Positions 10,601 through 44,999 of a DNA stretch of 64,000 bases are shown one piece after another. The notes under the pieces were generated by a model. It saw nothing but the letters and a program-made list of their open reading frames with translations, was not told the DNA's origin and did no database searches. How positions within the stretch are numbered: the stretch's first letter is position 1; the number at the start of each line of letters is the position of its first letter. Source of the DNA: Cladocopium goreaui (lineage: Eukaryota; Sar; Dinophyceae; Suessiales; Symbiodiniaceae); contig CAMXCT020006578.1 of NCBI GenBank assembly GCA_947184155.2, positions 953,590 to 1,017,589 of the forward strand. Direction: 5' to 3'. A program made the position numbers and the translations under genes.

Positions 10601-12295
10601 GCTCCACATGGTTTCTTGCTCCGTGTCAATTACTGCTTGGATGCCCTTGAGAAATGAACTTGAAATCAAGAACGGTGTGTTGCCCTCCACAACTGCAATT
10701 CTGAAAAATTGGTCTCCCAAAGGCAGCATGAGTGCATGTCGACTGACCAAGGTTTGATGATTTCCAAATCGAAAAACCAAGTTGCAAGACTGGCGACGAA
10801 CACGGCTGCGCACCCATTCCGGAATCTGTTTCAACAACTCAGGAACTTGTTTGCTACCTATCACAGTCTGAGAGGCACCTAGGTCAACAATTCCTATGGA
10901 TCCGGATGATGCGAATAGGCTCAGGTGTTCGGAGTCTTCTCGCGATACATGGGGCTCACTTCTTTGAAGCTTCAGCTTGCGCAGGGTGGCAATGCTCTCA
11001 CGGATGCTCAAATGGGTCGGCACACTCTTAGAACCCAGCTGGCTCCTGGAAAGAACCCGCTTGAACTTACTGAAGCCCCATTTATCCCCAATAGTTACCT
11101 TATCATCCATCATTGTCAGACAAACTTCATCATCCCACACCCCAGTTTTCTCCTCAGTGGTGGACAGGTTGAGCAGCTCTTCAGGGATCTCGGCCGTGGT
11201 CACAAATGATGTCGGTGCGGTCGATGGAGCCGCAGATGATGCCGTACTTCTGGAAGGGCACTCGTTCTTCCAATGGCCTTTCTTCATGCAGATGCGACAA
11301 TAGGAGTTTGCAATCCTATTGGCGAGAGAACTCTTTCCCTTGCCCTTCACTTTGCCCTTTTTGCCCGATCCCTTTTCTCCACGTTTGACAGCCCAGAAGC
11401 CTCTGAAGCGCACCTTTTCAGACAACCTCTTTCGAGCCTCTTGGTACGAGGAGTAAAAGGCACAGAGCTCAGCATCATTCTGCACTGTTTCCGCCACTGC
11501 ATCTTCAAATTGAAGTACAAGTGCTGCATCATCGTCATCCTCCGCTGCAAGACTTTCCAGTGTGGAATCGTCCAGAAAGTCATCCTGAACCCAAAACGTC
11601 TCATTCTCGGTGTCCATGTTTTCCGATTGATCTTCCAAAGTGAAGGCTGTGTGGTCATACGTCTTGAGGCTCTTCTCCTTTTTGAACCCCACCATGTCTT
11701 GAAAAAAACCTGAACCAATCATTCTCACAGCTGCTTCCACTTTGGATACTTCTAAGGCCCCACCTTTCTCAGCTCCAGAGTCCACTATGACCCGTTTCTT
11801 GTCTTCACTTCCAAGTCGACTTCCTCGAAGAAGTATGTAGGCCTGAATCTCTGCCATGTCAATCTTCTTGCCAATCAACTCCGTCCATACCACGTCACAA
11901 CGGGACAGATAGGAGTCACTGCTTTCGTCCATCTTTTGCTGACTGCGGTAAAGTGCTTTCTCTACCAACTCGAATTTCTTCTCCAAGGGAATGGCCCCCC
12001 ATTTACCTCCAACCAGTTCCACCAGCCTCTGAATCCCCTGAGGGTCGTTGATCAAAATCTCCTTGCGGTGAAGTTGAAGTTTCTGGAAGGCAGTCCCCTT
12101 ACACCCCAGCACCAGACGTGTGGCTAACTCCTGAATCTTGTTGGCAGGCCATGCTGAAAGCAGCAATTCTACCTTGTTCGTCCAGATTTCCACGTTGTCC
12201 ACTGCCGGATCAAAACTCGGCACCAGTATAGACAGGTTATTGGGAACTTGTCCAACTTCTGCTGAAGCTTCTCCACTTTGCCCTGGCGAAGCCAT
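4619..12295 (-). CDS. gag-pol: Copia gag-pol polyprotein (2558 aa)
   Basis: This single ORF encodes all proteins for retrotransposition. Seen in order: gag-like N-terminus; CCHC zinc knuckle CRICMKKGHWKNEC near residue 332; aspartic protease motif VDLGASQTVIG near 472; integrase zinc region HRNLGHPG followed by C-x2-C near 1441; integrase core with D (SMDGV, ~1502), D (VFDAATEF, ~1561) and E (RVERHGG, ~1598); reverse transcriptase FDIKTAFLRG (~2077) and HVDDG (~2173); and RNase H FSDASF (~2326). The start ATG lies 20 nt downstream of the primer binding site and translation stops about 100 nt before the 3' LTR. It is much longer than the usual 1300-1500 residues. The excess is mainly a low-complexity region between protease and integrase, part of which is the shadow of another ORF (9658-10218). 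Confidence 0.95.
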   Translation of the reverse strand: MASPGQSGEASAEVGQVPNNLSILVPSFDPAVDNVEIWTNKVELLLSAWPANKIQELATRLVLGCKGTAFQKLQLHRKEILINDPQGIQRLVELVGGKWGAIPLEKKFELVEKALYRSQQKMDESSDSYLSRCDVVWTELIGKKIDMAEIQAYILLRGSRLGSEDKKRVIVDSGAEKGGALEVSKVEAAVRMIGSGFFQDMVGFKKEKSLKTYDHTAFTLEDQSENMDTENETFWVQDDFLDDSTLESLAAEDDDDAALVLQFEDAVAETVQNDAELCAFYSSYQEARKRLSEKVRFRGFWAVKRGEKGSGKKGKVKGKGKSSLANRIANSYCRICMKKGHWKNECPSRSTASSAAPSTAPTSFVTTAEIPEELLNLSTTEEKTGVWDDEVCLTMMDDKVTIGDKWGFSKFKRVLSRSQLGSKSVPTHLSIRESIATLRKLKLQRSEPHVSREDSEHLSLFASSGSIGIVDLGASQTVIGSKQVPELLKQIPEWVRSRVRRQSCNLVFRFGNHQTLVSRHALMLPLGDQFFRIAVVEGNTPFLISSSFLKGIQAVIDTEQETMWSKFLSRQLKVSRNHKNLFLMDLNELWPSEIPGQCNESAKMVGPETCLASESKIADSQPPQPSEDSMPKHAEVEKVLQVNQVDPPFMPVAMHSKSEACQQISVEHVEHRSCTGTKEIEPTPSDQRSHVNHGVSVSEVGSVSSQDGRAPITGSCSRPEEAQPAGTGERSDRVWESKAGDTVSGSLQGSQVDGLVCEPIRKESQNGTPEVRDVCRKEVGPGDQVRGIPEQEPGQTEGQWVRQVMESHQGGAGGGKCRGMGTDSSKDVGSDHRDGHSSRPSEPHVPREPEPQSSHGQPRGQHGRDSPASQGSECSGQPVESFHGEDVADWDFNFMVPPGIQCPSFKSQVSRLVKQFESELKQIPMPRMQQPRIDLLEVMCHDHSELALQMKNVGGKAYRFSMTQGDLSTELGRNKLFSMLVTHRPKHVWYSPECFPWCLWNQFNESRSMQLWEQIYHKRQASLWQISLGIVLYRYQIAHRSHFHHEQPAGSKMKSVAGMEEITNNTLCSRFDMCQVGNLRDPATGEAIRKRLEVHTTSETLHRNLHKRLCPGLHVHRQIAGQTVVHGHRMPLSKFTEQYPPKFARQVTKIMLQSHDTPVFGTETVEDEEHPTKKRRLGQKMNLEAIAQKFTSINWQTVMTLADRLAPRVGTMIVDHGPLFQQVQHMCSNQTVKHLVLCRGLYTDRYVGPNKSMFPGEAPLRRMICIRRKIEDVQVDTEWEPWEKLTYKGLRRKAMPARVSLTIFAQAKSMTEESGRISADAAIPAMPERDHAPPSIAQPSAKRIRWDTMPEVEVPRSSDSSSSTPPPNPSLRTSNNNPANPNDNVTPDNNNENTPVLPENPKAKEFPEVDRNVIDLASQKHGPKFLKLEASEQAWLIKIHRNLGHPGPQKLMEFCRQLRCPEEFLQAIPDLNCSTCKETQQPKVARPAAIHEPMDFGEVISMDGVTWTNSKGDQFHFYHFIDQATSYHTAVGSVSRSATSAIQSLLQGWFQWAGAPSMIVFDAATEFNSEEFEAFLQRFNVKSKTCAAEAHWKNSRVERHGGVLQMMLTKMDHEEGITSYSQLATALMQATMTKNKWSRYRGYPPEMLVFGKSSRSPASVISDDDSAAHEFALRPTAEGLRFRAELECRERARRAFAAVDNDQTLRRALHGRSRPSRGQYAAGEWVMLWKQRGEASGQWEGPMNVIIQEGNKVVWVTRGTKLYRAAPEHIRPLSAVEEWNQNQQVTDEHGNNPHQNALSIIPPHGATQLHNHNSQVIPPDNSMPPNSNTRTAIHIHDDSSEIQSDPEPEATPGNLTPEGGEDASNSLPNQFPQMRSDSLPPLSAETIAAPVQTPIPEDDDDGLMVEQCNWFEDLNECFHLSEDQVWKLEVDINHADIDKWRREADPYAMSFLVSAAKKQRSEVKMSQLSETERQMFHQAKMKKIDSWLATETVAKVLRHQIPEENILRCRWILTWKPVDSPGPKDSKHVPKARLVVLGYEDPLVHEIPRDSPTMSKLSRMLIVQWAASMGWDIESFDIKTAFLRGQEQSERVLGVEPTAELREKLKLKPNEVLRLLKGAYGRVDAPYLWFMELKKGLESLGFIPSPFDPCVFVLPNEKSGTPEGMVGIHVDDGLCCGSEVFREKLRQLSEKFPFGSHKRRNFTFTGLKIDQQPDQSIHIHQTQYIKDIHHITVSRDRRSKPDDPVTDSERQELRALIGSLQYAAVNSRPDLCSRLGWLQSRINRAQVSTLLEANRTLHEAKLHVEVTIKVQPIPIAKLRFVAFSDASFSSNKEPDSHQGMMIMSCHENIGSNRTSPVNPLVWHSKKIQKVAVSTLSAEAMSLAGTVDMLSWVRLYWGWIMNVNIPWKKADQTLLQLPPAFAAIPPSDSETEVPSCPDNTFELLKQIPQNNKAIITTDCKSLYDLISRTAPPSCGEFRTLLQAKLIKEHLNNGIQIRWVPSAAQVADSLTKVMDNTMLRECLHLGKYCLHDESEILKARSDSRSRLQWLRQSAASYGER
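9658..10218 (-). CDS. Overprinted 186-aa ORF inside copia gag-pol
   Basis: This ATG-initiated ORF lies wholly within the polyprotein, in the +1 frame relative to it. Its product looks like an ordinary globular/helical protein: a charged N-terminus (MASVSQKLGQYRAKMEEH), a WTDWFVSQYEKS segment, and a C-terminal coiled coil with regular hydrophobic spacing (ILQDQVNHMFQENQNLNHR). The polyprotein read from the same bases is a Ser/Gly/Glu/Pro-rich string without structure. That contrast suggests this frame was the original coding frame and the gag-pol frame is passive, or the two are both used. From memory, similar WF-x-YxKSSKMEH segments occur in other dinoflagellate retroelement proteins, but I could not search. 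How it would be translated, about 2 kb from the first ATG, is unknown. Confidence 0.55.
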   Translation of the reverse strand: MASVSQKLGQYRAKMEEHQSQDRVADLKKLSLQELEKEVIAFGKAKLGTPFPEAFKDHKWTDWFVSQYEKSPKMEHQKYVMYVEKKLDQEIKSEGYQNKNPVKQKGNGSDKSWSHIKEELGEESAEEWEPTPAKMSGVTTEMAILQDQVNHMFQENQNLNHRMANLEGNMAEILLHLKGLSVQGNP

Positions 12296-12296
12296 C

Positions 12297-12314
12297 GTCC
12301 GGGCTCCGCTACCA
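12297..12314 (-). other. Primer binding site of the copia element
   Basis: On the minus strand, TGGTAGCGGAGCCCGGA begins 2 nt after the 5' LTR. It begins with TGG, as expected for pairing with a tRNA CCA end, and resembles the initiator-Met tRNA primer site used by many copia elements (plant form TGGTATCAGAGC). Confidence 0.75.
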
Positions 12315-12316
12315 GT

Positions 12317-18571: not shown

Positions 18572-18576
18572 TCCAT
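18572..18576. other. Target site duplication, left (TCCAT)
   Basis: TCCAT immediately precedes the left TIR and recurs at 22816-22820 immediately after the right TIR. It could be counted as CCAT (4 bp) if the adjoining T belongs to the TIR's T-run. Confidence 0.8.
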
Positions 18577-18684
18577 AAAAAAATGGTAAAACAGGGAAAC
18601 TAGGACAGGACAGGTTGGAGGTTAGGTGGGAGGCTGTTATGTTTTTGTTCAATCTTGTAATCTGAAATGTTTGACTGTTTCTTT
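18577..18684 (+). repeat. Left terminal inverted repeat
   Basis: It matches the reverse complement of 22708-22815 over 108 bp at roughly 92%: about five substitutions plus one local shift around 18656-18667. The outer 20 bases are identical in both copies. Confidence 0.93.
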
Positions 18685-19083
18685 TTGATTATCCTGCTAA
18701 ATGTTTTGTTGAGGTTGTTGTACTAATGCTTGGGTGCTATGATTTTATGTTGGTGTTCATGTTCGTTGGTTTTGATGTTTTTTCCTGTGGGGGTTCTGGG
18801 GATTAGTTCACTTCATTGTTTGGATTGAATGAAGGGGATAATTGTTGAGGTGGTCAGAGTTTCTATGTGTAGGTTCAGGTTCAAACTCTACCAAGCTGTT
18901 GTTCAAAGATGTCGAATGATTTGCTTCAAATTCATGTATTGATTGAGGTTAGGCGCTGTGGTTCCTGTTTGGTTTTGCATATCAAGCATCCTTCAATACC
19001 AAAGCCAGTTTGGCACAAATTGACTGAACCGATGTATTGTCCCTTTCCTTCGACATTCCGCAGATGCATCTTTGTGAGGCAGG
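18685..19083 (+). other. Element segment between left TIR and NTPase gene
   Basis: The plus strand is T/G-rich. A short ORF (18909-19166) overlaps the start of the NTPase frame and has no recognisable motif. This may be 5' flank or an upstream exon of the NTPase gene; CTTTGTGAGGCAG at about 19070-19082 could be a splice acceptor. Confidence 0.4.
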
Positions 19084-20348
19084 TTGAGCTTGCGCCAGGG
19101 GTTCGTCCTTCCAAGCGGTCATGCACGAACACAGCCCGCAAGGGCTTTTCCGGCGCAGACCGTTAAAACTGGTTGGACTTTGTTGAGCACAGGGAGCGTT
19201 GTAGTGCTGGTTCTCCAAGCTCTCATTCAAAGGTTCCTTCCTGGCTTCTTCATGAACAGGGCAGTGAGGAAGGCTGGGCAAAGGCTGGAAAGGACAGAGC
19301 CCGCCCCTGCACGGCCGGTCGAGGAGGAATACATCAAGGACTTCATCAATTCACCTCAAGGTGAAGCTTTGAGCACCCCTTCCTTGTTGGTGGTCAGTGG
19401 TTCCCAAGGCATTGGGAAATCAACCATGCTGAACAATCTCCTGAGTGAGCATGTGAAGAATGGCAAAAGGGTGCTCCCGCTCAAGATGTCAAGCCGTCCT
19501 GGTGAGGACTTGAAACTCAATGAAGCGCTGCCCAAAGCATTGCAAGCAGTAAATTTGCCGCGATACTACCCAGAACAAGTGGAGTATATGCTGGAAAAGG
19601 TGAACGAGACGTGCAAGCGCCGAACAGGCAGTGCGTCGTGGTATACCTGCAACTCACAACCAAAAGCCGCGGAGACAAATTTAGTAGGGATGCCTGTGAT
19701 GACATTGCTTCCACCCTCGGTGCCTTCGCTCGCAACATCACCTACGACAATGCCGCGTGCAAGTTCATTTTGGAGGTCAGCGTGTCTGCTGTGGCCGACA
19801 TCATCACCGAAAGGTTTGACATGTCAAGGCTGGTTGTGGTGCGACCGCTGCCTTTCGAAGACTTCACATCTGTGGTCAAGGAGGTGGCAAAGCAGGGAAA
19901 CGACTTCCGGACGCTGAACAAGGTTCTTGCCGAAGATGACATGGACGAGGTGTTGAAGCACTACTACATCCGCGTGGGGGGCAACTTGCGCGCCTTGGAC
20001 TTGATACTGGAAGACGTCTCCAGAGAAGGTCAGAAAGGTGCGGATGCGGTCATCGAGCAGGTTGAGCAGTGGTACAACCGGAGGGTGGAACCAATTGAAA
20101 AGAAATTGGATGACCAGGGAGTGAAGGACTATCTCCTCAAGGTGGCAGGGGCAGGACCCATGTGGTATCTCCCAGAGAGCGACGAAGACACCAAAATGAC
20201 TTTGAATCTTCTTCGTGAGGAGCCAGCAGACTGCGTCCTGAGGAGTACAACTTATTTAAGGGTGGCTTTGAAGCATTGGCATTTCGTCGCCAAGCTCTTT
20301 GAAGAGGATGAGCAGAAGTTACAGGATACATGTGAGCTTCGCCGGTGA
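19084..20348 (+). pseudogene. P-loop NTPase, broken by one frameshift
   Basis: The first part (frame open from 19084) has a possible membrane segment (GSVVVLVLQALIQRFLPGFF). It is followed by a Walker A motif GSQGIGKST near residue 106 and a helical NTPase core. Near 19600-19630 the good coding sense moves by -1 to a frame reading QCVVVYLQLTTKSRGDKF, which continues to a TGA at 20346-20348. Together they would make roughly 420 residues with a helical C-terminal region (VGGNLRALDLILEDV), as in ATPases of the AAA/STAND type. A canonical acidic Walker B was not recognised. The break could be a mutation, a sequencing error or a tiny intron: a 17-nt GT...AG stretch (19611-19627) would restore phase but is implausibly short. 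Base composition is like host genes and unlike the AT-rich cassette downstream, so it may be a captured host gene. Confidence 0.6.
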
Positions 20349-20439
20349 AAAAAAACTGTGGCGCTTGAGATGTTTTGTGGGTGAGTCATCCAAGAGTAAT
20401 TTTCACGTATTGCATGCATAACCGCAGATACCCAACCCT

Positions 20440-20840
20440 AGTATCAATGATACCCAGATACCAGTATCTAAGTATCAACGATACCCAGAGCCTAGTATCA
20501 ATGATACCCAGATACCAGTATCCAAGTATCAACGATACCCAGAACCGAGTATCAATGATACCCCAAACCGAATATCAATGATACCCTGATACCAGTATCC
20601 AAGTATCAATGATACCCAGAACCGAGTATCAATGATACCCAGAACCGAGTATCAATGATACCCCAAACCGAGTATCAATGATACCCAGATACCAATATCC
20701 AAGTATCAACGATACCCAGAACCAAGTATCAATGATACCCTGATACCAGTATCCAAGTATCAACGATACCCAGAACCGAGTATCAATGATACCGTGATAC
20801 CAGTATCCAAGTATCAACGATACCCAGAACCGAGTATCAA
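20440..20840. repeat. Minisatellite with near-palindromic core
   Basis: The core GTATCAATGATACC or GTATCAACGATACC is repeated more than a dozen times. It alternates with spacers such as CAGAACCGA and CAGATACCAGTATCCAA in a higher-order pattern of about 22-bp and longer units. Each core can nearly fold on itself (GTATC...GATAC). The array sits between the NTPase gene and the AT-rich cassette. Confidence 0.93.
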
Positions 20841-20864
20841 TCATTCACCGAACAAGCAACAACA

Positions 20865-21025
20865 GACAAATCGTTTCACCCTGAACTTTTTTAGCCAAAC
20901 CATCAAACACGGACAAATCGTTTCACCCTCAACTTTTGACAAAAACATGAAACACGGACAAATCGTTTCACCCTCAACTTTTATAGCCAAACCATCAAAC
21001 ACGGACAAATCGTTTCACCTTGAAC
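20865..21025. repeat. 46-bp tandem repeat, 4 copies
   Basis: GACAAATCGTTTCACC begins at 20865, 20912, 20957 and 21004, followed each time by (C/T)(T/C)(G/C)AACTTTT. Periods are 47, 45 and 47 bp. It marks the start of the AT-rich part of the element. The uniform repeats have no unique spacers, so this is not a CRISPR array. Confidence 0.93.
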
Positions 21026-21147
21026 TTTTGAAGACAAAAAATCCTTACTTCAACAAGTGTCCTAAAACCATCGTTTTAGCGTTCAAAAAACATCAATTTA
21101 GGACACTTGTTAAAAACACAATGTTTAGAGCAACAGACCCCAAAAAC

Positions 21148-21157
21148 ACTTAAAGAA
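21148..21157 (+). promoter_or_regulatory. Putative virus-like promoter motif, copy 1
   Basis: ACTTAAAGAA lies 29 nt upstream of the ATG at 21187, within AAAAACACTTAAAGAATTG. The same motif precedes the other ORFs of the cassette (22231-22240, 22374-22383, and as TTTTAAAGAA on the minus strand at 22133-22142). Confidence 0.5.
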
Positions 21158-21186
21158 TTGACGCCTTATAGAATCAAGAATTGAAT

Positions 21187-21492
21187 ATGCCCTGCTATAT
21201 GTATATTAACGGTATGAAGCAAGAAATGGACGAAGACCTTTTTGACCAAATGGCGGAAGCACTACACCAATCCAGCAACCCTCAAAATCCACCAACCACA
21301 ACATCCACAAGATGGAAACCCGACGGAACTTACGACAAGAAACCATTAGACCCCAATTATTTTTCAAAGTATTATCAAAAGAAATTATCAACCCCTTTCA
21401 CCTGTCCAGACTGCGGACGAACCATCACAAGCAAATCCAATCTATCAAAACACCGTCAAACCAACAGATGTATGAACAGCAGACAACACTAA
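21187..21492 (+). CDS. Small C2H2 zinc-finger protein (101 aa)
   Basis: The ATG at 21187 is chosen because the open frame upstream has only a TTG. The C-terminus carries one C2H2 finger: CPDCGRTITSKSNLSKHRQ followed by C, pattern C-x2-C...H-x5-C, with the SNLSKH core of a DNA-contacting helix. The middle part (DPNYFSKYYQKKLSTPF) resembles, from memory, short proteins of algal large DNA viruses and their endogenous copies. The gene is AT-rich, unlike the host genes around it, and lies convergent to the GIY-YIG gene 48 nt away. It may be a DNA-binding regulator or the DNA-recognition partner of the nuclease; that is inference. Confidence 0.7.
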   Translation: MPCYMYINGMKQEMDEDLFDQMAEALHQSSNPQNPPTTTSTRWKPDGTYDKKPLDPNYFSKYYQKKLSTPFTCPDCGRTITSKSNLSKHRQTNRCMNSRQH

Positions 21493-21540
21493 AAATAAAA
21501 CCTTCTCATTAACAACGTTTTTTTAATCAGAATGTTTTAT

Positions 21541-22122
21541 CTATTCATTGTCCATTCCCGTTTGTTTGACACAGTTGTTCTTTTGATGCCATAGAGCATA
21601 GTATTGAAAAAAATAACGCTTACAAAACGGACATTCAACCTTCAAAAGGCGTTGTTCTATTATTTTCTCTTCATTCAAACGGCGTTTTTCTATTATTTCC
21701 TCTTTATGTTTGTGATAGTATGCTCTGGCACGTGCCTTGCCTCTTTCATAGTATTCTCTCGCTTGCTCTGGATTGTCCAGTTTCCACTCCTGTTGCGTCC
21801 TACCTGCAATCTGTCCATTGACACATTCTGTTGCTTTGATATGTCCCCCTTCTCTTTTGAACAATTCTTCCTTACTTTGACACGGGTAGTTCTCAATCAG
21901 TTCAATCGTACAATTCTCAATACCGAATTCATTGAATATATCTATTGCGGTTGTCTTCTTTTTCATCCTCCCTTTGATGTATTCCTTATATTGTTTTCTA
22001 TGTTTTTCCATTCTTTTACTCAAACTTTCACAGGTGCTCCCAATATAGCATTTATTATATCCAACATCCGTAATTTTGTAAATCTTTCCGTTTTCATACC
22101 TATTCATACCTATATTTACCAT
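21541..22122 (-). CDS. GIY-YIG family endonuclease (193 aa)
   Basis: Residues about 12-30 read GKIYKITDVGYNKCYIGST, the GIY...YIG signature with the first Gly-Ile-Tyr relaxed to KIYKI. They are followed by a helix with the conserved basic residues (LSKRMEKHRKQY) and a Glu (ELFKREGGHI) in the position of the metal-binding glutamate. The C-terminal half is strongly charged and helical (KEEIIEKRRLNEEKIIEQR) and ends with a CPFCKRYF...H zinc-finger-like motif. Such single-strand-nicking nucleases are common as homing endonucleases and in large DNA viruses. The start chosen is the ATG opening MVNIGMNRYENGK. It is convergent with the zinc-finger ORF. Role inferred: a DNA-cutting enzyme of a selfish element, possibly used for spread. 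Confidence 0.85.
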   Translation of the reverse strand: MVNIGMNRYENGKIYKITDVGYNKCYIGSTCESLSKRMEKHRKQYKEYIKGRMKKKTTAIDIFNEFGIENCTIELIENYPCQSKEELFKREGGHIKATECVNGQIAGRTQQEWKLDNPEQAREYYERGKARARAYYHKHKEEIIEKRRLNEEKIIEQRLLKVECPFCKRYFFQYYALWHQKNNCVKQTGMDNE

Positions 22123-22132
22123 AAGTTGCCAT

Positions 22133-22142
22133 TTCTTTAAAA
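22133..22142 (-). promoter_or_regulatory. Putative promoter motif of the GIY-YIG gene
   Basis: On the minus strand TTTTAAAGAA lies 10 nt upstream of the nuclease ATG and matches the 3' part of the motif before the other two ORFs. Confidence 0.45.
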
Positions 22143-22230
22143 CAATTTATCAAGTCAAACGACGGTGTCCTCACGTTGGACTTCAACCCAGAACCCAATG
22201 ACCTAAAAACTGAACGAGAGCCCAAAAACT

Positions 22231-22240
22231 ACTTAAAGAA
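22231..22240 (+). promoter_or_regulatory. Putative promoter motif, copy 3
   Basis: ACTTAAAGAA sits within AAAAACTACTTAAAGAAATG, which is followed directly by an ATG opening only a 13-codon ORF; the long frame opens at 22267. A further identical ACTACTTAAAGAAA lies at 22371-22384. Confidence 0.5.
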
Positions 22241-22446
22241 ATGATGTTTTATATATTAAGGAGAATATGGGAGAGGGTGTAAGGTTAAAAAATGAAAATT
22301 TATCTCAAAACTTAATCCACCAACAATCCAATCATCCGCAACATCCTCAACAAACAATTCACACTGAAAAACTACTTAAAGAAACAAAATATAATAATAA
22401 TAATGATAATAATAATGATAATAATAATAATATAGATTATACTATA

Positions 22447-22704
22447 ATGGACACTTCACAGCAGATTGTTTTAGATTATCTTTTGTCATCCGAAAAGGGT
22501 GAGATATTGAAACGGAATGGAGAAGAACTCAAGAAACTCAAGATTGGAGACAAGACCTACAACTTTGAAAGGGGGAAACCCATTTCAAAGAGGTTGATAA
22601 CAAAATTCAACAAGATTAGGCAGACAATGGACTACAAAAAGTATGAACTGAAAGAGAAGAGAGGCATTAGATGGGTCAATCTGGACAAGAACAAAGCACT
22701 CTAA
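22447..22704 (+). CDS. Small lysine-rich protein of the cassette (85 aa)
   Basis: The frame is open from ATG 22267 (145 aa). I prefer ATG 22447, because the stretch before it is an AAT/GAT microsatellite coding for Asn/Asp runs and contains the motif ACTTAAAGAA at 22374-22383, about 63 nt upstream. The product (MDTSQQIVLDYLLSSEKGEI...) is helical and basic and ends YKKYELKEKRGIRWVN. It ends three bases before the right TIR. No family recognised. AT-rich codon use matches the zinc-finger and GIY-YIG genes. Confidence 0.6.
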   Translation: MDTSQQIVLDYLLSSEKGEILKRNGEELKKLKIGDKTYNFERGKPISKRLITKFNKIRQTMDYKKYELKEKRGIRWVNLDKNKAL

Positions 22705-22707
22705 CAG

Positions 22708-22815
22708 AAAGAAACAGTCAAACATTTAGATTTACAACATTGAACAAAAACATAACAGCCTCCCACCTGACCTCCAACCTGTCTTGTCCCAGTTCCCCTG
22801 TTTTACCATTTTTTT
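22708..22815 (-). repeat. Right terminal inverted repeat
   Basis: Reverse complement of 18577-18684 at about 92%. It ends in a T-run and is followed by the target duplication TCCAT (22816-22820). Confidence 0.93.
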
Positions 22816-22878
22816 TCCATGCATTTTCTGGACAAATCTAGCCATACTTAGACCATCTTAGTGGCGATGGCAACTTAG

Positions 22879-23078
22879 CAGCTGATCAGGTCTTGGTGGC
22901 AGCAGAGCCTGCAGCGTTTGGTACCCAGATGCTTGATGATTCTTTGTGGGCATTGGCCATGCAGACCCAATTTGGAGGCCAACTCCTGCGCCGGTGCCGC
23001 AGAATGCCGCGGTGCGCCAAACGGGCCACACGGGGGGAATGGTCGGATGTGAAAGATGAATGGATTATGATGGATTAG
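22879..23078 (+). CDS. Candidate exon downstream of the TIR element
   Basis: It follows AACTTAG and reads ADQVLVAAEPAAFGTQML in phase with the exon ending at 18545. Around 22980 another frame becomes P/Q/A-rich (PTPAPVPQNAAVRQTG), so a junction or small indel may lie there; the end is uncertain. Confidence 0.45.
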
Positions 23079-24412: not shown

Positions 24413-24456
24413 CCATTTTGGCTCAAGCCATTTTGGCTCAAGGTGATTGGCTCAAG
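24413..24456 (+). repeat. Tandem spliced-leader relicts at LINE 5' end
   Basis: CCATTTTGGCTCAAG at 24413-24427 and again at 24428-24442 are exact copies of the last 15 nt of the dinoflagellate trans-spliced leader. A third partial copy, ATTGGCTCAAG, lies at 24446-24456. Stacked relicts of this kind are known from dinoflagellate genes that were trans-spliced, reverse-transcribed and reinserted more than once. Here they sit 54-68 nt upstream of the first ATG of LINE ORF1. Confidence 0.85.
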
Positions 24457-24509: not shown

Positions 24510-26183
24510 ATGGCGGGCTTGTTCAAAGCCATGCTGGCGGTGCTGGCCCTGTGCTGCGGGGGTGAGATGAACAGAGATGACGATGGACAATGGTTTGTGC
24601 AATGCCGGGTGTATTGCATCTTACTCACTGTCCCTTTTTTTTGTGCTAGCTACTTCGTGAGGTATCAATTCGTTGCATTGAATTTGAATTTTGACGTCCT
24701 TGCAATCTTTTCTGGTGTGTGTATGGGTATGGCTGCGGTTTCAAGACGTTTGTGCAGTAAAGCCGGTAAGATTGAATGGATGATGCAAAGTTGGAGCCGG
24801 ATTTTCCACATCGTGAACTTGGTGAGGAAAACTGTGTGTGGGAGAAAAGTGTGGTGGCCTCTCTTGAAGATTATGGTGATTTTAACAGGTTGTGCTTGTT
24901 TTTGCTGGCTTGAGTCACCGTGGAGCTTCAAGTTCTATCAGCGCTTCGTGGCTATGTGGTCCACTGCTTGGATGCATTTGTGGGACCTTTGGGGCTCTTT
25001 TGCTGCTTTTGTATTCTTCCACGTCAAAGCCATGATTTTGCAGACTCATGCTTCGTGTGTTTCTGGACACACCGTGGATGGTTTTCAGGCAACTCCTGGA
25101 TTCGAAATACCGGTGAATTGCGTTGCGCAGATGGTTGACACGGATTTCAAACCAACTTGGAATCATGGTTTGCTGTCAGCTGTGGCGATGATGTCTTATT
25201 ATTTCGTGACCCTTTGGCAATTTTGCTCCACTAGGACATGCAAGCTTGTTTCATGGGGGAGCGTTTTTACAATGATGATTTCTGGGTTGGTTTTCTGCAA
25301 CCGATCTCTTTGCCATGTCACGCAAAGGCCTCAGATAGCTGAGGTTGTCTCTGCAATGTCACAGTGGTGCCAGCAGTTTCAATTCACAGGTGCCGATCTT
25401 GTTTGTTTAGGCCTCAGTTTAATTTGTGTGCGATGTTTCAGACAAGCCGTCATTTGGAGTTTCCAAACCAGACATGATGCTTCTGTTGCATACATGCAGA
25501 AGCACTTTTTGCGAAATGCCGCGGTCGTATTTTGCTTGCATACTTGTTTGTCCAATCCGACCAGCCTCTCTTTCGTTTTCGCCGGGGCCTACAAGGTCCT
25601 TGTCCTGATGTGCGGAAAGAAGAGAATAGTAGGTTGTGGAATAGCACTCCTTGGCATCATGCTCATGCGAATGTTGTTTTCAATGCATCGGTTCCTCACA
25701 TGGAATGCACAGAAAGCGCTGCTGTGGTTCTGTCATCTGGCATGCAAGATCATGGTCATCGCTTTCTTTTTCCGAAAGCTGTTGACTGAACCTTCTTTTG
25801 TGAATCTGCTTTTGATTGGTTTAGGGGTTGACATCATCGATTTGGTGACATTAGCTGTTTTCAGGATAATGCTGTCACTTCACCATTTGAATGCAAGGCC
25901 AAAGAAAGTCTTCAAGTGCAGAAGAGTTGGCCGAAAGCGCTGCCGATTGCATCGTAAGTGCATCCGAAAGCCAAGAGTCAGTTTGTTTAATAGGGTAGGC
26001 CGTTTCCTGTCCTTTTGCGTACGTGCGCAGTTTTGCCCATTCTGTCAAAACATGCCTGAGCATTCGCAAACCTCCCGGCCCAGATCTTCCTTCCGCGGGG
26101 GAGGTCGTAGAAACAGTCCAGAGACACCGGAACAGAAACTGCTGCAAGGTTTGCAGATTTTGTTGTACTTTGCAGGCCTCTAG
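24510..26183 (+). CDS. LINE ORF1: polytopic membrane-like protein
   Basis: The first ATG (24510) opens MAGLFKAMLAVLALCCGG, which looks like a signal peptide or first membrane segment; the frame is open further upstream only from a TTG inside the spliced-leader relicts. About 558 residues follow, with some ten hydrophobic segments (for example CILLTVPFFCASYFV, LLKIMVILTGCACFCWL, LLSAVAMMSYYFVTLW, FVNLLLIGLGVDIIDLV). A basic Arg/Lys-rich tail ends CRRVGRKRCRLHRKC. LINE ORF1 proteins are normally soluble RNA-binding chaperones with coiled coil, RRM or CCHC fingers, none of which is seen; only the basic tail could bind RNA. The last 185 bases overlap the open frame of ORF2 (+1). Function unknown. 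Confidence 0.65.
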   Translation: MAGLFKAMLAVLALCCGGEMNRDDDGQWFVQCRVYCILLTVPFFCASYFVRYQFVALNLNFDVLAIFSGVCMGMAAVSRRLCSKAGKIEWMMQSWSRIFHIVNLVRKTVCGRKVWWPLLKIMVILTGCACFCWLESPWSFKFYQRFVAMWSTAWMHLWDLWGSFAAFVFFHVKAMILQTHASCVSGHTVDGFQATPGFEIPVNCVAQMVDTDFKPTWNHGLLSAVAMMSYYFVTLWQFCSTRTCKLVSWGSVFTMMISGLVFCNRSLCHVTQRPQIAEVVSAMSQWCQQFQFTGADLVCLGLSLICVRCFRQAVIWSFQTRHDASVAYMQKHFLRNAAVVFCLHTCLSNPTSLSFVFAGAYKVLVLMCGKKRIVGCGIALLGIMLMRMLFSMHRFLTWNAQKALLWFCHLACKIMVIAFFFRKLLTEPSFVNLLLIGLGVDIIDLVTLAVFRIMLSLHHLNARPKKVFKCRRVGRKRCRLHRKCIRKPRVSLFNRVGRFLSFCVRAQFCPFCQNMPEHSQTSRPRSSFRGGGRRNSPETPEQKLLQGLQILLYFAGL

Positions 26184-29100
26184 CTCCGGAGCCTCAAACA
26201 AAAAAGGCAAGGGTAAGGGCTCCGGCAAAAGTAGTGGTAAAAGCCTACCTTCCAAACAGAGAGATGCGAACCATGATGGCAGCTATGGGCTGATTCAAGC
26301 CTTGCAAAAGCTAACTGCCCGAGCCGCAAAGAAACCACAAGGGTTGCTCCAAAGGTTGAAAACATTGGTTCAAGTTACTGAACGTGGTATGTTGCGACCA
26401 AACAAGAGAAAGAAAGATCTGCCGCCGCATGAGGCGGTCCCGCCAGTGAAACCAAGCACACGATTCAAAAGTTCAGAAAATTTGGTAGATGGTGCTCCTA
26501 AGCCAAAAACACGATGGCAACGCGACAGATCCTGGAAAGCCCGTGCCCAGGACTGGGGCGTCAAAACTGTTTTGCGTGGCCCCACAGCTCTGTGCAACGC
26601 TCTTGACAGTGGGGACACCGGTGCTCTCCTGTGTCAAGTACAAAATCTGGATGATTGGAATGAAGCCCTCCAAATTTCTCATGCTGCTGGTCGCACCAAT
26701 GTCACGGTTGTTCTTGAAGCTGCACCTAACATGTCTCCAGAACTTGGCAAATTGAGATATCATGGTTGGACAGCCTTGAACACACGTGCAGCTGGTTATG
26801 CCGATGATAAATTGGTCCAGCGCTTGGTTTGGATTGCGCGGTGCTCGCCAAATGCACCCACATTGGTTCCAGGATCCGTGCTGACAGGCGCCAGGCGGCC
26901 TGTTGTCCAGAAACACGGCCATGAAGAGTCTTTTGTTTTTCGAATTAGTTGTGACATGCGATTTATTGCCAGTGACAATCGCCATCATATCACACAGGGA
27001 CCTGGGAAATTTTTTCGTTTGTGGCTGTCTGATTTAGGCCCAAACGCTAGGGATCTTCTGCTTCACCTTGGTGACACGTGGGGATTCCAAAAACTCGAGG
27101 CTGAAAACCTGGTTCGAGGATTTGCTCGCGTCAAAGGCAAAGACAGGGCCCTGCAGTTGATTAAAGCGAGCGGCTCAGAACACAAAGGTCAGGTTTGGTT
27201 TCTTGATCCTGCCAGATGGGATGGCCTCGCAGAAACACCTCCACGCATGCTTTGGGTGGACAAATTGGAAAATGAACAACAAATTGCATTTGCTCGTCGC
27301 GTAGCTCATGATTCGGGTCCTTTTGGCATGGCTAGGGGTCGTGTACAGCTGGCTCTCAGGGTCAAACCAGACGATGAGCGGCTCAAACCCACTTCTAGTG
27401 TTTGGCGGGTTGAGACAGTGCCGTTTGGTTGGGATTTTGAAAATGTGGAAGAAACTCTGGTTGAAGCAGGTTTCTCTGAAATTGATATTTTAGCAAAGCA
27501 ACGCCGTCGTGGTGGCACTGCTTGGGTTTTCAAAGGCATGAGAAATGATGACCGTGATCAAATGCAAATCCATTATGATGCGGACGAGACGTGCAATGAG
27601 CCACCATTAGATCTGTTTTTAGTTAAGCAGTCCAAACGACGTGCGCCAGGAAATGTCCAGCCGTTGAAAGCAGAAAATGATGTGCTCTTTTCACTAGATG
27701 CATTTCACAAAAAAGGTAAGGGTAAAGGCAAAGGAAAAGGCAAGCACAAATCCAAGCTTGAAGTGCCTGACTTTGCAACCACGCTTGCCTTACCGAAAAG
27801 TAGTCCACCTCCATTTCCCTCCAAGGATGATCGCGGTAACGAAGCTATGGATGTCAGTCTGATTAGCGTCCCAGATGCAAGTGATGTTGAGGATGAGCCC
27901 ATGCATGTCCAGGGCACCAAACGCAAAGACCAGGCCATGTTGACCAGCCCGCAAAAAACTGGTCATGACAAAAAGAGGATGAAAGTGCCCGAGAGGCTTC
28001 AAAAAGTTCCGAACCCTGGGGAAGGGAATTGCTTGTTTTACTGTCTAGCTCAGGCGGAGTCTACCCCAGGTAAGTCCCGCAGCCACAGGCAGGTGCGTGC
28101 ATTTGTTGTTGCCTACATGACCAAACACTTCAAGAAATACGAGGATTTCTGGGACGGTTTAAGCCCGAGCAACATTCCCATGGAGGGTGGGTTTGACGAT
28201 TATTTACAAGCCCTTGAAAAAGATAAAGCTTGGGCGGGATATTGTGAAATCGAAGCATATGGCGAAGCCATGCGCCGACCTGTACTTGTTGTGCATGCCA
28301 AGGACAATGTTGTCCATGCTTTTAATAGTCATGGCGATAAGGATGTTGTCTGTCTCTGGTACAAGGATGAACATTATGAGCTTATTGTTCCTTCAGACGC
28401 AGATATTCAGGCCCTGTGGCAGAATGCTGAAGACGGTGGCACCAAGGGTTACCGCGGGGCCGCAAAGAAGGCACGCTTGGCTGCCGACAATGCCTCTATT
28501 TGCCTTTCACAATTTGCAACTCCCAAATCCAGCAGGCCAAGCCCAAGGTTGACCGATTTTGCCCAAAGCACCCCTGCCAAACGGAGTGCATGTCTGACTG
28601 GTTTTGCATCAACGGCCAAACCGAGCCGTCAAAAGACCGAGCAATCAGAAGCCGAGCCATGTGGTTCCAACCCATCTGCCGCATCAGCTTCTGCGTCTGT
28701 TGCCACTGGGCGCGACCGGGAAATCACGTGGACATGTCACATTTGCAATGTCTCTTTCACTGACAAAGCATGCATCGTTTCAAAAAGACGTACGGATCAC
28801 ATTAGGCGTACGCATCGTGGTACCCCAACCACCAATTTTAAAAAGGCTGTTGATCAGTACAGGGCTCCGGTTACTGCCGTATCGTATGGGCCCACTCATG
28901 CTGCTGTTTCTTGGACTTGTGGTTTTTGCATGGGCACCCTCCCCATTTTGCCTAAGACACATCAGAAAGCATCAATCGTTGCTCATTTGCGCTCCTGCGC
29001 CAAGGCCCCAAAAGGGGCCACCAGAGGCGACTCCATTCTTCGCCTTTGCAAGAGAGCAAGCGTGTCATCTGATGTACCTCACAGAAGCATTTTGCCTTGG

Positions 29101-32100
29101 AAGCTGAAGCATCGCCAGATGTATGTGCAACTCAACAAGTTTGCCAAGGAGCAAGGACACTCCCTATCCCAAGTGCAGAGACGTACTACTGGAACGAAAA
29201 AATTGGCTGGTGGGTCGAAAAAAGTTATTTTCTTCATGGCTCAGCATGCTTGTTCCATTTGTGCTGGTTACTGGAAAACTGAGAAGTCCGTGAGAGCTGC
29301 AGGTCCTTGTGGCGGGCGGACTGCTCGTGCCGAGTGGTTAGCCATGCCTGGTCGCCAAAAATGCTGGCGTCAGGCTCCCAAAGAGCGCCAAGAGGCGCTG
29401 CACAAGGCTTGGCGTTTGAGTGCTACTGAGCGTAGGAAGCTTGATGATGCTTGGGCTAGCGCCAAGAAAAAGTCGCGCAAGAAGTGGCCGCCTAAGTCAT
29501 GGAAACGCGATTTGACTGCTGAGAATATACACCCCCATCCAGGCCCAGGCCACCCTGACCACTGGATTCTCTCGTGGAATTGCCGTGGATCGTGCAATGC
29601 TTGGAGGGGCCTAAACTTGCTTCAGGATGAGGGTAATTTGCCTTCTGTTTTATGTCTTCAAGAGCCTGACTTCGAGCCTCGTCAAGGCTCCCAGTATGTT
29701 GAAAGGCTTCAGAAACTTGGGTACAAGTGTTGGACCATTCCGGCCAAACCTATTCGCACACTTAAACGTGAATTTTACCGAGGTGGTCTTTTGGTTGCAT
29801 TGCGAGAGCATCTCAGAGGAGGCATCTGGGACACACTGGCTTGCGATGAAGGGTATGTCATGACTTTGGATCTTCAATCGTGCCTACTTTCCTCAGTTTG
29901 GCGCCGGCCAAGCCAACTTGATGGTTTGCAATTTTTGGAATATGTTGCTACGGTCACTGAAGAAGCACAACGCAGGCAGATACCTGCACTTTGGGTAGGT
30001 GATTGGAACGAAACTCCTGATGACAACGCCGCATCCATTTTCTTGAATGGCAGTGTTCTGGCTGTCACGGATCCTGATCAATGGGTGCCTAGCCGGTTCG
30101 AAGGTAAAAGATGTCTTGATTACGGAATTCTCAGCGGCGGGTACGGTTTTGCTGATTGCCCGCGTTACAGTGAATGTAAGATTTCTGATCACAAGATGTT
30201 TTGGCTTAGATTGCGCTTGCCCATTTTCCAGACTGATACGTGGAGGTTCGCTTGGCGGCCTAACTATGAATGTCCTCCGGAAGTGCCTGTTGAGCAATGG
30301 CGGGCCGTGCTTGCAGAACAATGGGCCGCTTACGTGCCATGTTTTTCTCAGGATCCCGACCAAGATTGGGCATATTTTCACCAGTTTGCTGAAAAGAGCA
30401 TGCGTGAAGCATTGCACTTGTGTGGCCAGCCCGTGCCTAGGCCAGGCCATGCGCGCGGGAATTTGCCTCGTGTGATCAAGGCTGAGCGCCCCCAGGTGAA
30501 TACGTTCCCTGCCAGAAAACTTGTTAATGTGCTTGGTCGTCTCTATGAAGTGAAGCGACAGTTAGCCAAGTCCCAGGGAGACAAAAAGCTTTTGCAAAAA
30601 TTATGGTCGACTTGGCCGTCTGAATACAATGAGCTTTGGGGGTCTTGGAACCACGCTATTGAAGTGTTTGAACAACGCATTGCGCTTGAAAACAGGAAGT
30701 CCAAGAACCAAAGGCTGACCGAGTGGCGTACCAGAATGCGCCAGGGGGGCAAAGAGGTGACCCGGTGGATGAAGCCTCACAAACCTCCAACACCACGCTC
30801 TGTTTCCGAAGATTCTTGCGCCACGATCACGCAAACCCTTGATTGTATTCGTTCTTTTTGGCAGCGTATTTGGAAACGTGATGACCTCGTTCCACACTTA
30901 CCCCCGGAATTTAGAACAATGGAAGCCCTGGCTGGACCCCAAACTGATTGGATGCCAGATGCTGCCCTCATCCATCAGGCCGCTCTCAGAGCCTCGGGGT
31001 CTGCAGCCGGATGTGACGGTTGGTCCGGCAGCGAAGTTTGCCATTTCCCGCTTGTTGCTTGGGATCACTACCGTGATTTGGTTTTGCATTGGTCTCAGTT
31101 AAAACAATTCCCACAGGCATGGCTGCAGGTTCGTCAGGTTCATTTAAGAAAGGATGACGGTGGGACTGTAGGGTCTTTGCGGCCTATTGCAGTTGAAAGC
31201 ATTTTTCTTCGGTTGGTCTCCTCATCTTATGTGAGGACCCCACAGGTTCAGGAATGGATTGCGTCTCGGGTCCCCGAGCAGTGCCATGGAGGCTTGAAAT
31301 CCCGGGGGGTTGCCACGGCATGGAGGCAACTCAATGAAGCGTTTGAAAACCAGGAAGTTCTTGCTTCTTTAGATTTCTCCAAATGTTTTGATTTTGTCCA
31401 CCCAGGTTTGGCCATTGAAAACATGCAACTGCAAGGGTTGCCAGATGAGTGGGCTAACATTTTGATGTTTGTATGGGGTCATCAAGTGCGATGGCTGTGC
31501 TTGGGGAAAGCTGTGCACCCAACGCCGGAGCATGTCCAGACCTCCATGCCGCAAGGTGATGCCTTTGCACCTCTGGCTCTTATCATGTTGCTCATTAGGC
31601 CCCTTCATGATGTGTCTTCCATTCCAGACTTGCGTCAGGTTGCATACGTTGATGATCGCGCTTTGAGCGCGCCTAATGTTCCACGTTTAATTGCTGGCAT
31701 CCATAGATGGCGCAGCTGGAGTGCCACTTTGGGTCTCCATGAAAACGTTCAAAAAATGCGTTTAGTTGCCTGCACTGCGCAACAAAAGCAAGAGATCAAT
31801 GACGCAGGGTTTGGTGAGTATCTCCGACCGGCCACTCGGGTCTTAGGTATTGACTTTAAGGAAAGTGACCTTATTGTTTCCCCTGTTCTTGAAAACCGTT
31901 TGCAAGAAGCAGTGTTTGCCGCTCACCGTTTGCAGAAATTGCCGGTTGCCCGCGATATCAGGATGTCTTTGTACAGGTCCAGAATCATTTCACTCGCCAC
32001 CTGGGGCGCTTGGTTTGAACGATTGCCGCAGTCACAGTTGCCTTCGCTTCGAAAGGCATGGCATGCCATTTCCTATCTGCAAGGTAACGCTTCGAGACCT

Positions 32101-43649: not shown

Positions 43650-43870
43650 ATACATAGGTACTTTTATGATTATATACTTACGTATAGTTCTATGTGTATG
43701 TGTGTCTGTCATAGTATGTCATATGTCATGTCATATGTCATGTCATGTCATGTATTGTAATGTGATGTGATGTAATGTAATGTAATGTAATGTCATGCGA
43801 CGCGACGCGACGTACGGTATGGTATGGCATGTTACGGTACGATATGGTACGGTATGGGATGGCATGGTAT
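43650..43870. repeat. TGTCA/TGTAA/GGTAC pentanucleotide microsatellite
   Basis: Runs of ATGTC, ATGTA, GCGAC and TACGGTATGG units lie directly before the dehydrogenase gene. Confidence 0.85.
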
Positions 43871-43977
43871 GTATACAAATGTACGTGCTATACTACGGCC
43901 AGCACCAATAGCAAGTTTGGGATGTAAATGGTTTGTGGAGTTGCTTGGGACTTGTTCCCCCTTTGTTTCGAGTCCAG

Positions 43978-44999
43978 GCTTCAACTCCTATGAAGAGATG
44001 TTTGCAGATCCTGATTTGGATATGGTCTACGTCGGAACAGTTCACCCAACCCATCATCAAGTGGCCTTGGCCGCCATCCGGGCTGGAAAACATGTGTTGG
44101 TGGAGAAACCTTTGTGTACCACTCTGGCTGAAACCAGGGATCTGGTTGCTGAAGCTCGCAAAGTTGGTGTATTTTTAATGGAGGCCTTGTGGACGCGTTG
44201 CTTTCCAGTCACGCTGCGAGTCAGAGAGATTCTGGCTTCCAACAGATTGGGCCCTGTCAGAGCTGTCAGCGCCGACTTTGGTTTTTACCTGCCTTTTGAT
44301 GCCTCTCACCGTTTACATTCCAAAGAGATGGGTGGAGGTGCTATGTTGAACCTTGGCTTTTATCCGGTGCAGTGGGCTGTGTTTGCCTTCGGTGGCCAGA
44401 TGCCCAACCACATAGTTGCAGCAGGACGTTTATCACCATCAGGTGTTGACTTGCAAGGTGGCGCAACGCTCATATGGGATAATAAAGATCACACGGGCGA
44501 TTCCAAGGTTGGAACTTCATTTGGCGTGGCCAGTTTGACGTTTGGTTTCTCGTGCAACACTGGAGAAACTGCTGAGATCATTTGCGAAAAGGGTAGTCTT
44601 TGCGTTGAAACTCCGGCCCACGCCCCGACAAAGCTGAAGGTCGTGGATCGTACCGCGGATCCCTTCGCACGTCCAGGTTCCGGTTGTTGTGAAGAGGAAG
44701 TGGTTGAATTTCCATTGGAGGAGCTTCCTTATCACACGTGGGCTCATCCACGGCCTGGCTTGAGCTATCCTCATGGGGAAGGCATGATGTATGAGGCGCG
44801 ACATGTGGAGGAATGTTTGTCAAAAGGTTTGTTGGAATCTCCATGGTATCCTTTGGATGAGACCCTGGTTGTTGCGCAGATCATGGATGATTGTTTGCAC
44901 CAAATAAATCGGCCAAGCCCTGCAAACTTGGCGGACCGTTGTCAGGGCCTGGTGTTGCTGGGTGTTCCAGACAAGACTCACAGCTGGGCCAATGATTAA
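43978..44999 (+). CDS. Gfo/Idh/MocA-family dehydrogenase, N-terminal exon missing
   Basis: Members oxidise sugars or diols with NAD(P); the closest type by eye is trans-1,2-dihydrobenzene-1,2-diol dehydrogenase. Visible: VYVGTVHPTHHQVALAAIRA; the cofactor/catalytic motif HVLVEKPLC; FLMEALWTRCFP; a DFGFY strand; GGGAMLNLGFYPVQWA; and a C-terminal domain ending VAQIMDDCLHQINR. About 340 residues are present. The N-terminal Rossmann strand with GxGxxG is absent. A pyrimidine-rich acceptor TTGTTTCGAGTCCAG ends at 43977 and the phase fits, so the first exon should lie upstream but was not found; a microsatellite occupies 43650-43870. The open frame continues upstream to 43824 but that part is not conserved-looking. 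No stop or frameshift interrupts the 1-kb exon. Probably cytosolic. Confidence 0.88.

Follow-up and report, generated by a model that had tools for sequence, protein, structure and literature searches.

A transposon-like element and its genes

The window analysed here, a 64-kb stretch of the genome of the dinoflagellate Cladocopium goreaui, contains at positions 18577 to 22815 an element bounded by terminal inverted repeats (TIRs), with genes for a P-loop NTPase, a C2H2 zinc-finger protein, a GIY-YIG endonuclease and the beginning of a DNA polymerase (polB). We interpret it, with a probability of about 0.92, as a defective derivative, formed by internal deletion, of a family of Polinton-like viruses (PLVs) endogenous to this dinoflagellate.

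The left TIR (18577–18687, plus strand, beginning AAAAAAATGGTAAAACAGGG) and the right TIR (22705–22815, minus strand) were delimited by repeat search; they are complementary at 91% over 111 nt and identical in their outermost 20 bases, which refines the 108-bp inverted repeats with identical outer ends of a preliminary description made from the window's letters. Inside the 64 kb, BLAST aligns the pair at 92.9% across 112 positions with E = 1.9e-40, so the pairing is not due to chance. The 5-bp repeat TCCAT noted earlier at both borders (18572–18576 and 22816–22820) was confirmed by direct reading, and the joined flanks gave two genome matches that overlap by exactly these five bases, the target-site duplication (TSD). 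All genome searches were run against one C. goreaui assembly of 1.17 Gb, which includes the window. The suggested search for further copies returned many of them: 40 scored matches to the element end, the window's own included, among 225 candidates. The TIRs are therefore no local coincidence, and the right end is found with 100% identity at locus L028 and 99% at L023. Twenty-two of the 40 scored end places were fetched at length (20 loci, to which three extensions were added) and the other 17 as short pieces; the further 185 candidates were neither scored nor read.

Internally, the gene list of the preliminary description (NTPase, C2H2 protein, GIY-YIG nuclease, small basic protein) stands in part: all four are seen, with the NTPase frameshifted and the small basic protein turning out to be a polB start. 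The NTPase gene (18909–20348, plus strand), identified from its open reading frames (ORFs), Pfam and its relatives, is AAA_22/nSTAND-like with the Walker A motif GSQGIGKST. Its open frames, 19084–19917 and 19611–20348, lie in two different frames, with frameshifts near 19100 and near 19630 relative to full-length relatives; since the reading frame stays open throughout in relatives such as P0004, the window gene is broken. Downstream, a tandem array of 14 palindromic cores GTATCA(A)(C/T)GATAC (20427–20840) belongs to the NTPase module, followed by 3.6 copies of a 47-bp tandem repeat (20865–21029) and a hairpin-like inverted repeat with 29-nt arms at 79% (21049–21114).

A putative virus-type promoter-like stretch (21138–21179, plus strand; CACTTAAAGAA, AT-rich thereafter) precedes the zinc-finger gene (21187–21492, plus strand; Pfam zf-C2H2, E 7.9e-6), which occupies the same slot in L016, L019, L021, L022 and L032. 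The GIY-YIG endonuclease, with a C-terminal CxxC stretch, is encoded on the minus strand (21541–22122); it scores E 0.0011 against Pfam, below the curated cut-off, and E 8.7e-7 against the PHROGs homing endonuclease family phrog_19446, and has relatives in viral PLV-like contigs. A second putative promoter-like stretch (22221–22262, plus strand; TACTTAAAGAAATG..TTTATATATTAA), 74% like the first, precedes the former small basic protein (22267–22704, plus strand). This consists of the first 145 codons of the window copy's polB frame, truncated by a deletion; its N-terminus is shared with longer copies and runs on toward polB in L019, L022 and L032. The GC content falls along the element from 53% (19001–20000) via 44% to 37% (21001–23000).

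In agreement with the preliminary description, Pfam and PHROGs scans of the five ORFs of the element recognised no transposase or integrase, and none of the transposases of the known DDE cut-and-paste superfamilies. The window copy was likewise found to have no integrase or capsid genes of its own. Because the polB N-terminus is all that is left of the polymerase, integrase and capsid genes, it is a PLV derivative and not a PLV genome.

Longer copies with the same ends

In all, 21 query proteins were mapped onto the window element and the 23 fetched stretches. From the left end, the gene order comprises an optional NTPase module, the zinc finger, GIY-YIG in reverse, polB, an S74-domain fibre-like protein and a packaging ATPase. 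Onward from the ATPase follow a C5 methylase, a minor-capsid-like, a lipase-like and a major capsid protein (MCP)-like gene, small genes, an integrase, more small genes and the right end. This order is a composite of overlapping partial copies. TIRs on both sides are seen in the window element and, with a second end inside the stretch, at 9 of the 20 fetched loci. A further 16.5-kb element, C2:130534–147027, has both ends together with polB, ATPase, MCP-like and integrase genes, its right end being weak (30 bp at 87%; 81 positions at 75%). At L017 and L018 none of the 21 query proteins matched. Two short two-ended elements, L018 and L034, have GC-richer, minisatellite-like repetitive stretches inside.

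The polB of the longer copies matches Pfam DNA_pol_B_2 (PF03175) at E 8.6e-6 (25.3 bits, just short of the cut-off at 25.8). By eye, L032/L030 show the motifs YLDANNLYG, NNAVYGKT and YTDTDS; Pfam scans of two polB pieces, L022:1687–3036 and L032:7241–9163, gave no match. We take this polymerase to be of the protein-primed subtype. Integrase genes are present at 8 of the 20 loci (L015, L020, L021, L026–L029, and L030 via extension L035). The integrase matches NCBIfam NF033577 (IS481, rve-type) at E 3.5e-12, well below the model's equivalog cut-off, has a D..D..E pattern by eye, and reaches E 0.46–0.5 against integrase structures of the human T-cell leukaemia virus type 2 (HTLV-2) type. The packaging ATPase ORFs of L030 and L036 match an ATPase-like ORF of the IMG/VR contig L004 (E 1.9e-12 and 1.8e-9), which itself has no Pfam ATPase match, and score E 6.8e-4 against a HerA model. 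Pfam further recognises the S74 chaperone domain (E 1.3e-11) and the C5 methylase (E 2.3e-4). Proteins of 472–479 aa (MCP-like) and 276 aa (minor-capsid-like, with no Pfam match) are conserved across copies. General ORF scans recognised no maturation protease, for which no dedicated profile search was made, and there was no tyrosine recombinase among the scanned ORFs of the longer copies.

The ratio of non-synonymous to synonymous substitution rates (dN/dS) is 0.07–0.12 between MCP-like copies (3 pairs) and 0.09–0.12 between integrase copies (3 pairs), with 0.45–0.49 in three integrase pairs involving L029, which may include frameshifts. These low values indicate that the virus genes were under selection until recently.

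Relatives of the window proteins were also sought more broadly. The small protein has 157 relatives among 166 candidates (120 listed), and the window protein is only the start of this longer family; an AlphaFold model of one relative, P0199, was not good enough to search by fold (mean pLDDT, the predicted local distance difference test score, 53.1). The polB start of L059:3971–4576, in the C. goreaui genome, and that of P0199, a protein from an ENA contig, stop at an identical frame break, ...YLRNIME, which may mean that an already broken polB was copied. In IMG/VR, a GIY-YIG alignment reached six contigs (L001–L006) out of 193 pattern hits, two of which, L005 and L006, are contigs of about 220 kb. 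Contigs L001–L004 carry proteins that we take to be PLV-like capsid proteins; Pfam and PDB searches gave them no support. IMG/VR scans with the single GIY-YIG protein, the NTPase relative P0002, the small protein, the TIR pattern, a small-protein alignment and the degenerate pattern LPK....KKA..N.KN found no relatives, and PDB profile searches with the NTPase, GIY-YIG and small proteins returned weak matches or none.

Internal deletion, target sites and competing explanations

Alignment with these copies places a deletion junction at 22701/22702. The window element consists of a PLV left arm (18577–22701) joined to the last 114 bp of a PLV right end. L016 aligns with the window through to 22701 in a single stretch (90%) and L019 in two overlapping stretches (92–95%), the alignments of L022 and L032 likewise end at 22701, and the right-end relatives L015, L023 and L028 (the last at 100%) align from 22702 on. 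The missing middle is estimated at about 15 kb or more, using the distance between polB and the right end in C2 and the stretch of over 16 kb that follows the start of polB in C85 before the far end comes into view. Its deletion accounts for the missing integrase and virus genes. When a 256-bp junction query was searched against the genome, the window alone spanned the junction among 40 scored matches (337 candidates); the ends of the other 39 fall between −2 and +6 nt relative to 22701. As a second copy of the junction would outscore those 39 matches, it is very probably private to the window copy.

The insertion sites of the family were examined in 11 two-ended elements (the window, nine loci and C2), nine of which have exact 5-bp TSDs. 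The duplication reads CCCAG in six (L015, where TCCCA is an alternative, L018, L023, L024, L026 and L028), and TCCAT, CTGGG and AGGGG in the window, L016 and L034, respectively. For the wider target-site statistics, 48 ends were reduced to 45 by dropping three with duplicate flanks: the paired loci L026/L027, L033/L039 and L046/L049 come from separate contigs and share the flank of one end exactly, each pair being counted once. Given these identical flanks, the pairs are probably haplotigs or segmental duplications. The word CCCA or TGGG occurs at 35 of the 45 distinct ends, when a 7-nt stretch is read that closes with the first base of the element, a count that lets the element's own first base complete the word, against a background of 3.4% of all 7-mers and 12 of 234 window sites before A-runs. 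Counting the six flanking bases only, and thus leaving that base out, gives 26 of 45 (background 2.5%). By insertion, at least one end has the word in 28 of 34, and in 22 of 34 under the strict count; both ends of the window element belong to the ten ends without it.

Empty sites were sought with the joined flanks of seven sister insertions, and paralogous ones were found for two, L034 and L023. For L034, one paralogous stretch reads AGGGA at the insertion point and a second lacks the insert with small gaps; for L023, nine matches span the site, and the three that were fetched have a single CCCAG and no insert. The joined flanks of L015, L016, L018 and L028 found only their own flanks, and extra flank matches of L024 were set aside as short repetitive stretches. 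Measured against the refuting conditions of the preliminary description (no further copies, no clean empty site), the many copies, the exact duplications in nine of 11 two-ended elements and the paralogous empty sites of two sister copies speak for mobility.

Taken together, we propose that the parental virus would have had the same terminal repeats and encoded polB and a retroviral-type DDE integrase as well as a packaging ATPase and capsid-like proteins. This integrase would join the A-rich ends to host DNA, preferably at CCCA/TGGG sites, with a 5-bp duplication; the site pattern itself rests on many copies, and the integrase is assigned this role from family knowledge. The window copy would have retained the left arm (NTPase module, zinc finger, GIY-YIG and polB start) and the terminal 114 bp on the right side, the middle having been lost at one junction either before insertion, with movement in trans by an intact virus, or afterwards in place. 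The window copy is unable to move by its own genes. The earlier suggestion of a virus-derived mobile element is thereby borne out, since longer copies with the same ends encode the integrase and PLV genes; for the same reason, the statement that the element matches no known kind is not supported, these copies having PLV genes and a retroviral-type DDE integrase.

Several observations weigh against this interpretation. No single fetched copy has all genes from NTPase to integrase plus both ends: the 16.5-kb copy C2 lacks the NTPase, zinc finger and GIY-YIG genes, L020 has NTPase, integrase and capsid-like genes with GIY-YIG and polB absent where expected, and L022 with its continuation L036 was read short of the far end. 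The integrase reaches only E 0.03–0.07 with the Pfam rve models (rve_3), the lipase-like protein E 0.0069 at best (NCBIfam), and the MCP-like protein has no match in Pfam, PDB, NCBIfam or IMG/VR; the labels MCP-like, minor-capsid-like and lipase-like are our assumption. At the ends, L021 shows no TSD, the TSD of C2 is 6–8 bp depending on how an A-run is read, and the right end of L034 aligns from 22695 instead of 22702, at 88%. Finally, the joined flanks of the window's own site found no empty counterpart in this assembly, so the proposed empty-site check succeeded for two of seven sister copies and failed for the window itself.

Regarding the order of events, the deletion may have come first, leaving a shortened genome with both ends and the left arm, a non-autonomous mini-element whose replication and integration an intact virus then provided in trans. 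We consider this version possible, at somewhat less than even odds. It agrees with the clean TSD of the window copy, with the integrase genes at 8 of the 20 loci, and with nine other short two-ended elements (2.4–7.0 kb) of varied content among those loci, although short two-ended copies are over-represented there, as both ends had to fall within 10 kb. Against it stands the junction: spanned by the window alone among the 40 scored matches, it means that the window form has not visibly multiplied in this assembly.

An unlikely alternative is a cellular, Pack-type gene-capturing transposon that acquired an NTPase from the host and virus debris independently of it. With a GC content of about 50–53%, the NTPase part exceeds the viral part (mostly 31–40%) and resembles host DNA in this respect; in L032, the slot is filled by another stretch, also of about 50% GC. 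However, the NTPase lies at the same end of copies that bear virus genes (L016, L019, L020, L021 and L033), and upstream of polB, on the same strand and within 10 kb, at 15 of 40 scored polB-start loci, window included. Moreover, a search with P0058, a homologue at greater distance (46% identical to the query), gave only copies; because the best-scoring match was 49% identical, no close P0058-like host gene is seen in this genome. With the NTPase recurring beside virus genes and no close P0058-like host gene seen, any capture would have been by the virus, and old.

Far less probable is a new class of transposon moved by its GIY-YIG enzyme with the NTPase and zinc finger as partners, as the gene set of the window element taken alone might suggest. 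The GIY-YIG family is indeed abundant, since 1115 of 1209 candidate proteins reach E ≤ 1e-3 (120 of them listed), but other copies hold the integrase and virus genes between the same ends, and six loci with exact TSDs (L015, L018, L023, L024, L028 and L034) have no GIY-YIG match at E ≤ 1e-8. GIY-YIG copies, in addition, carry no sign of constraint (dN/dS 0.97–1.65 in 3 of 3 pairs, with few changes), and the short staggered duplication fits a DDE integrase. The earlier idea of movement dependent on the GIY-YIG enzyme is accordingly not supported, the rve-type integrase lying between the same ends in longer copies. A local rearrangement with inverted repeats arising by chance, for which nothing speaks beyond the caution of the preliminary description, is refuted for the family by the many copies with recurrent ends, the TSDs and the paralogous empty sites of L023 and L034.

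The left-end module, promoters and known relatives

Of 6942 candidates for relatives of the NTPase, 78 reach E ≤ 1e-3. Where a species is named, it is C. goreaui or Effrenium voratum, and all sources in which the NTPase was seen are either labelled as dinoflagellate or bear no label. Read by eye, the family shares the Walker A motif GSQGIGKST, with a conserved YLQLTTK where the acidic Walker B would be expected. Its relative P0001 matches AAA_22 (Pfam E 5.7e-7) and gave a poor AlphaFold model (mean pLDDT 42.9). Unbroken 490-codon frames exist in the C. goreaui genome, where 54 of the 78 rows from the genome search with P0058 (24 weaker rows dropped) collapse into 48 loci, at least 11 of them within 3 kb of a scored element end, counting the 40 scored ends only. 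A 1954-aa NTPase frame of C35 was rejected as an artefact of an N run. The palindromic core recurs in 11 other fetched loci, every one with the NTPase, and is absent from L023 and L031, where the NTPase is present. In L032, a sister PLV, the stretch that fills this left-end slot (L032:432–3005) has one motif resembling Walker A (APTMRGKS) and one resembling Walker B (LLLHIDEH). They are distributed over different frames, perhaps because of introns, and four ORFs of the stretch have no convincing Pfam match. In P0005, the NTPase open frame, read by eye, continues straight into an apparent antisense GIY-YIG gene, which looks like a second arrangement of the two genes.

Between NTPase copies dN/dS is 0.49–1.88 (10 pairs), and the gene is not clearly maintained by selection. 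We infer that it is most likely an accessory gene of the virus, acting in virus-host or virus-virus interaction, and not a transposition enzyme.

Promoter-like motifs were surveyed upstream of 17 genes of the family. A TTAAAGA-type stretch is present in seven (ZnF, GIY, polB, u198, u160b, u128 and Zn2), u179 and ATPase have neither this stretch nor TCTA, and TCTA lies within 32 nt of the start in 7 of the 8 remaining genes (shuffle mean 1.25; 0 of 4000 shuffles reach 7), an optimistic figure since the eight genes were picked after the list had been seen.

Polintons, or Mavericks, are self-synthesising elements with polB and an rve integrase, as in the present family, in which the general ORF scans recognised no maturation protease. 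Maverick repeats are annotated in Breviolum minutum, another Symbiodiniaceae genome (PMC11071213), and PLVs in dinoflagellates are already known (PMC10120064, PMC12721341). PLVs of the dinoflagellate and cryptophyte groups (PMC10120064, PMC12220804) resemble our family in their TIRs, short TSDs, polB and scattered occurrence as protist proviruses, and part of the known ones have an rve integrase, as does the present family. TSDs are quoted as 5–6 bp for PLVs, typically 6 bp for those with rve integrase (PMC12220804), and as 5–6 bp for Maverick/Polinton (PMC8547959), against mostly 5 bp here. In contrast to known PLVs, the window element is a deleted derivative; its family has ends of about 111–157 bp, a left-end module of NTPase and palindromic repeats, and a CCCA/TGGG preference that goes unmentioned in the consulted portions of PMC10120064 and PMC12220804.

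OmPLV of Oxyrrhis marina (PMC12721341) shares the dinoflagellate host, low GC, TIRs, ATPase, polB and GIY-YIG, as well as fragmentation toward a transposon-like life; it differs by a tyrosine recombinase, the absence of a TSD and a helicase-polB fusion, whereas our family combines TSDs with an integrase of the rve type. Mavirus and the endogenous mavirus-like elements (EMALEs) of Cafeteria (PMC8547959) are alike in TIRs and TSDs (mostly 3–5 bp in EMALEs, 5–6 bp in mavirus), in truncated copies still flanked by TIRs and, for one EMALE type, in a TCTA promoter motif; TCTA is the late motif of Cafeteria roenbergensis virus (CroV) and of the EMALE type that includes mavirus (PMC8547959, PMC5294985). 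According to PMC8547959, there is no evidence that integration is sequence-specific, unlike the 35 of 45 ends (26 strictly) at CCCA/TGGG here. At the level of titles and the starts of abstracts, no published report of a CCCA preference or of the NTPase module was found, a level at which absence from the literature is not established.

The element is ordinary in kind, a defective endogenous-PLV derivative, but its family has two unusual traits, the target word and the NTPase module. Tentatively, these could mark a PLV lineage, living in coral symbionts, in which the rve integrase truly favours certain sequences, namely 5-bp sites built around CCCA/TGGG, and the left end serves as an accessory slot for P-loop NTPases. 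In many copies the cargo of this slot would be the window-type NTPase with its palindromic array, and in L032 another open stretch, whose motifs resemble Walker A and B. If so, the NTPases might act as immune-like (STAND) effectors when the virus is in conflict with its host or with other viruses, and the TCTA-type promoters would link the parental virus to a giant virus. This raises the questions of how a PLV integrase prefers a short DNA word, when a related virophage group reportedly does not, and what role a multi-copy P-loop NTPase has for such a virus in coral symbionts. A seemingly unclassifiable transposon becomes a readable decay step of an endogenous virus, and verdicts of "no transposase" call for inspection of sister copies. 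NTPase copies near one element end may also matter for annotating Symbiodiniaceae gene families.

Elsewhere in the window, two perfect tandem copies of CCATTTTGGCTCAAG, which we take to be a relic of the dinoflagellate trans-spliced leader, lie at 24413–24442, just upstream of a long open frame; they hint at re-integration of a spliced mRNA. On the minus strand, a 2565-aa open frame (4619–12316) with a CCHC knuckle and integrase- and reverse-transcriptase-like stretches presumably represents a Ty1/copia-type retroelement. On the plus strand, a 2263-aa open frame (25999–32790) reads, in our assumption, as a non-LTR (long terminal repeat) retrotransposon with an OTU-like domain and endonuclease/reverse transcriptase, and the open frame at 43791–44999 resembles what we take to be a GFO/IDH/MocA oxidoreductase.

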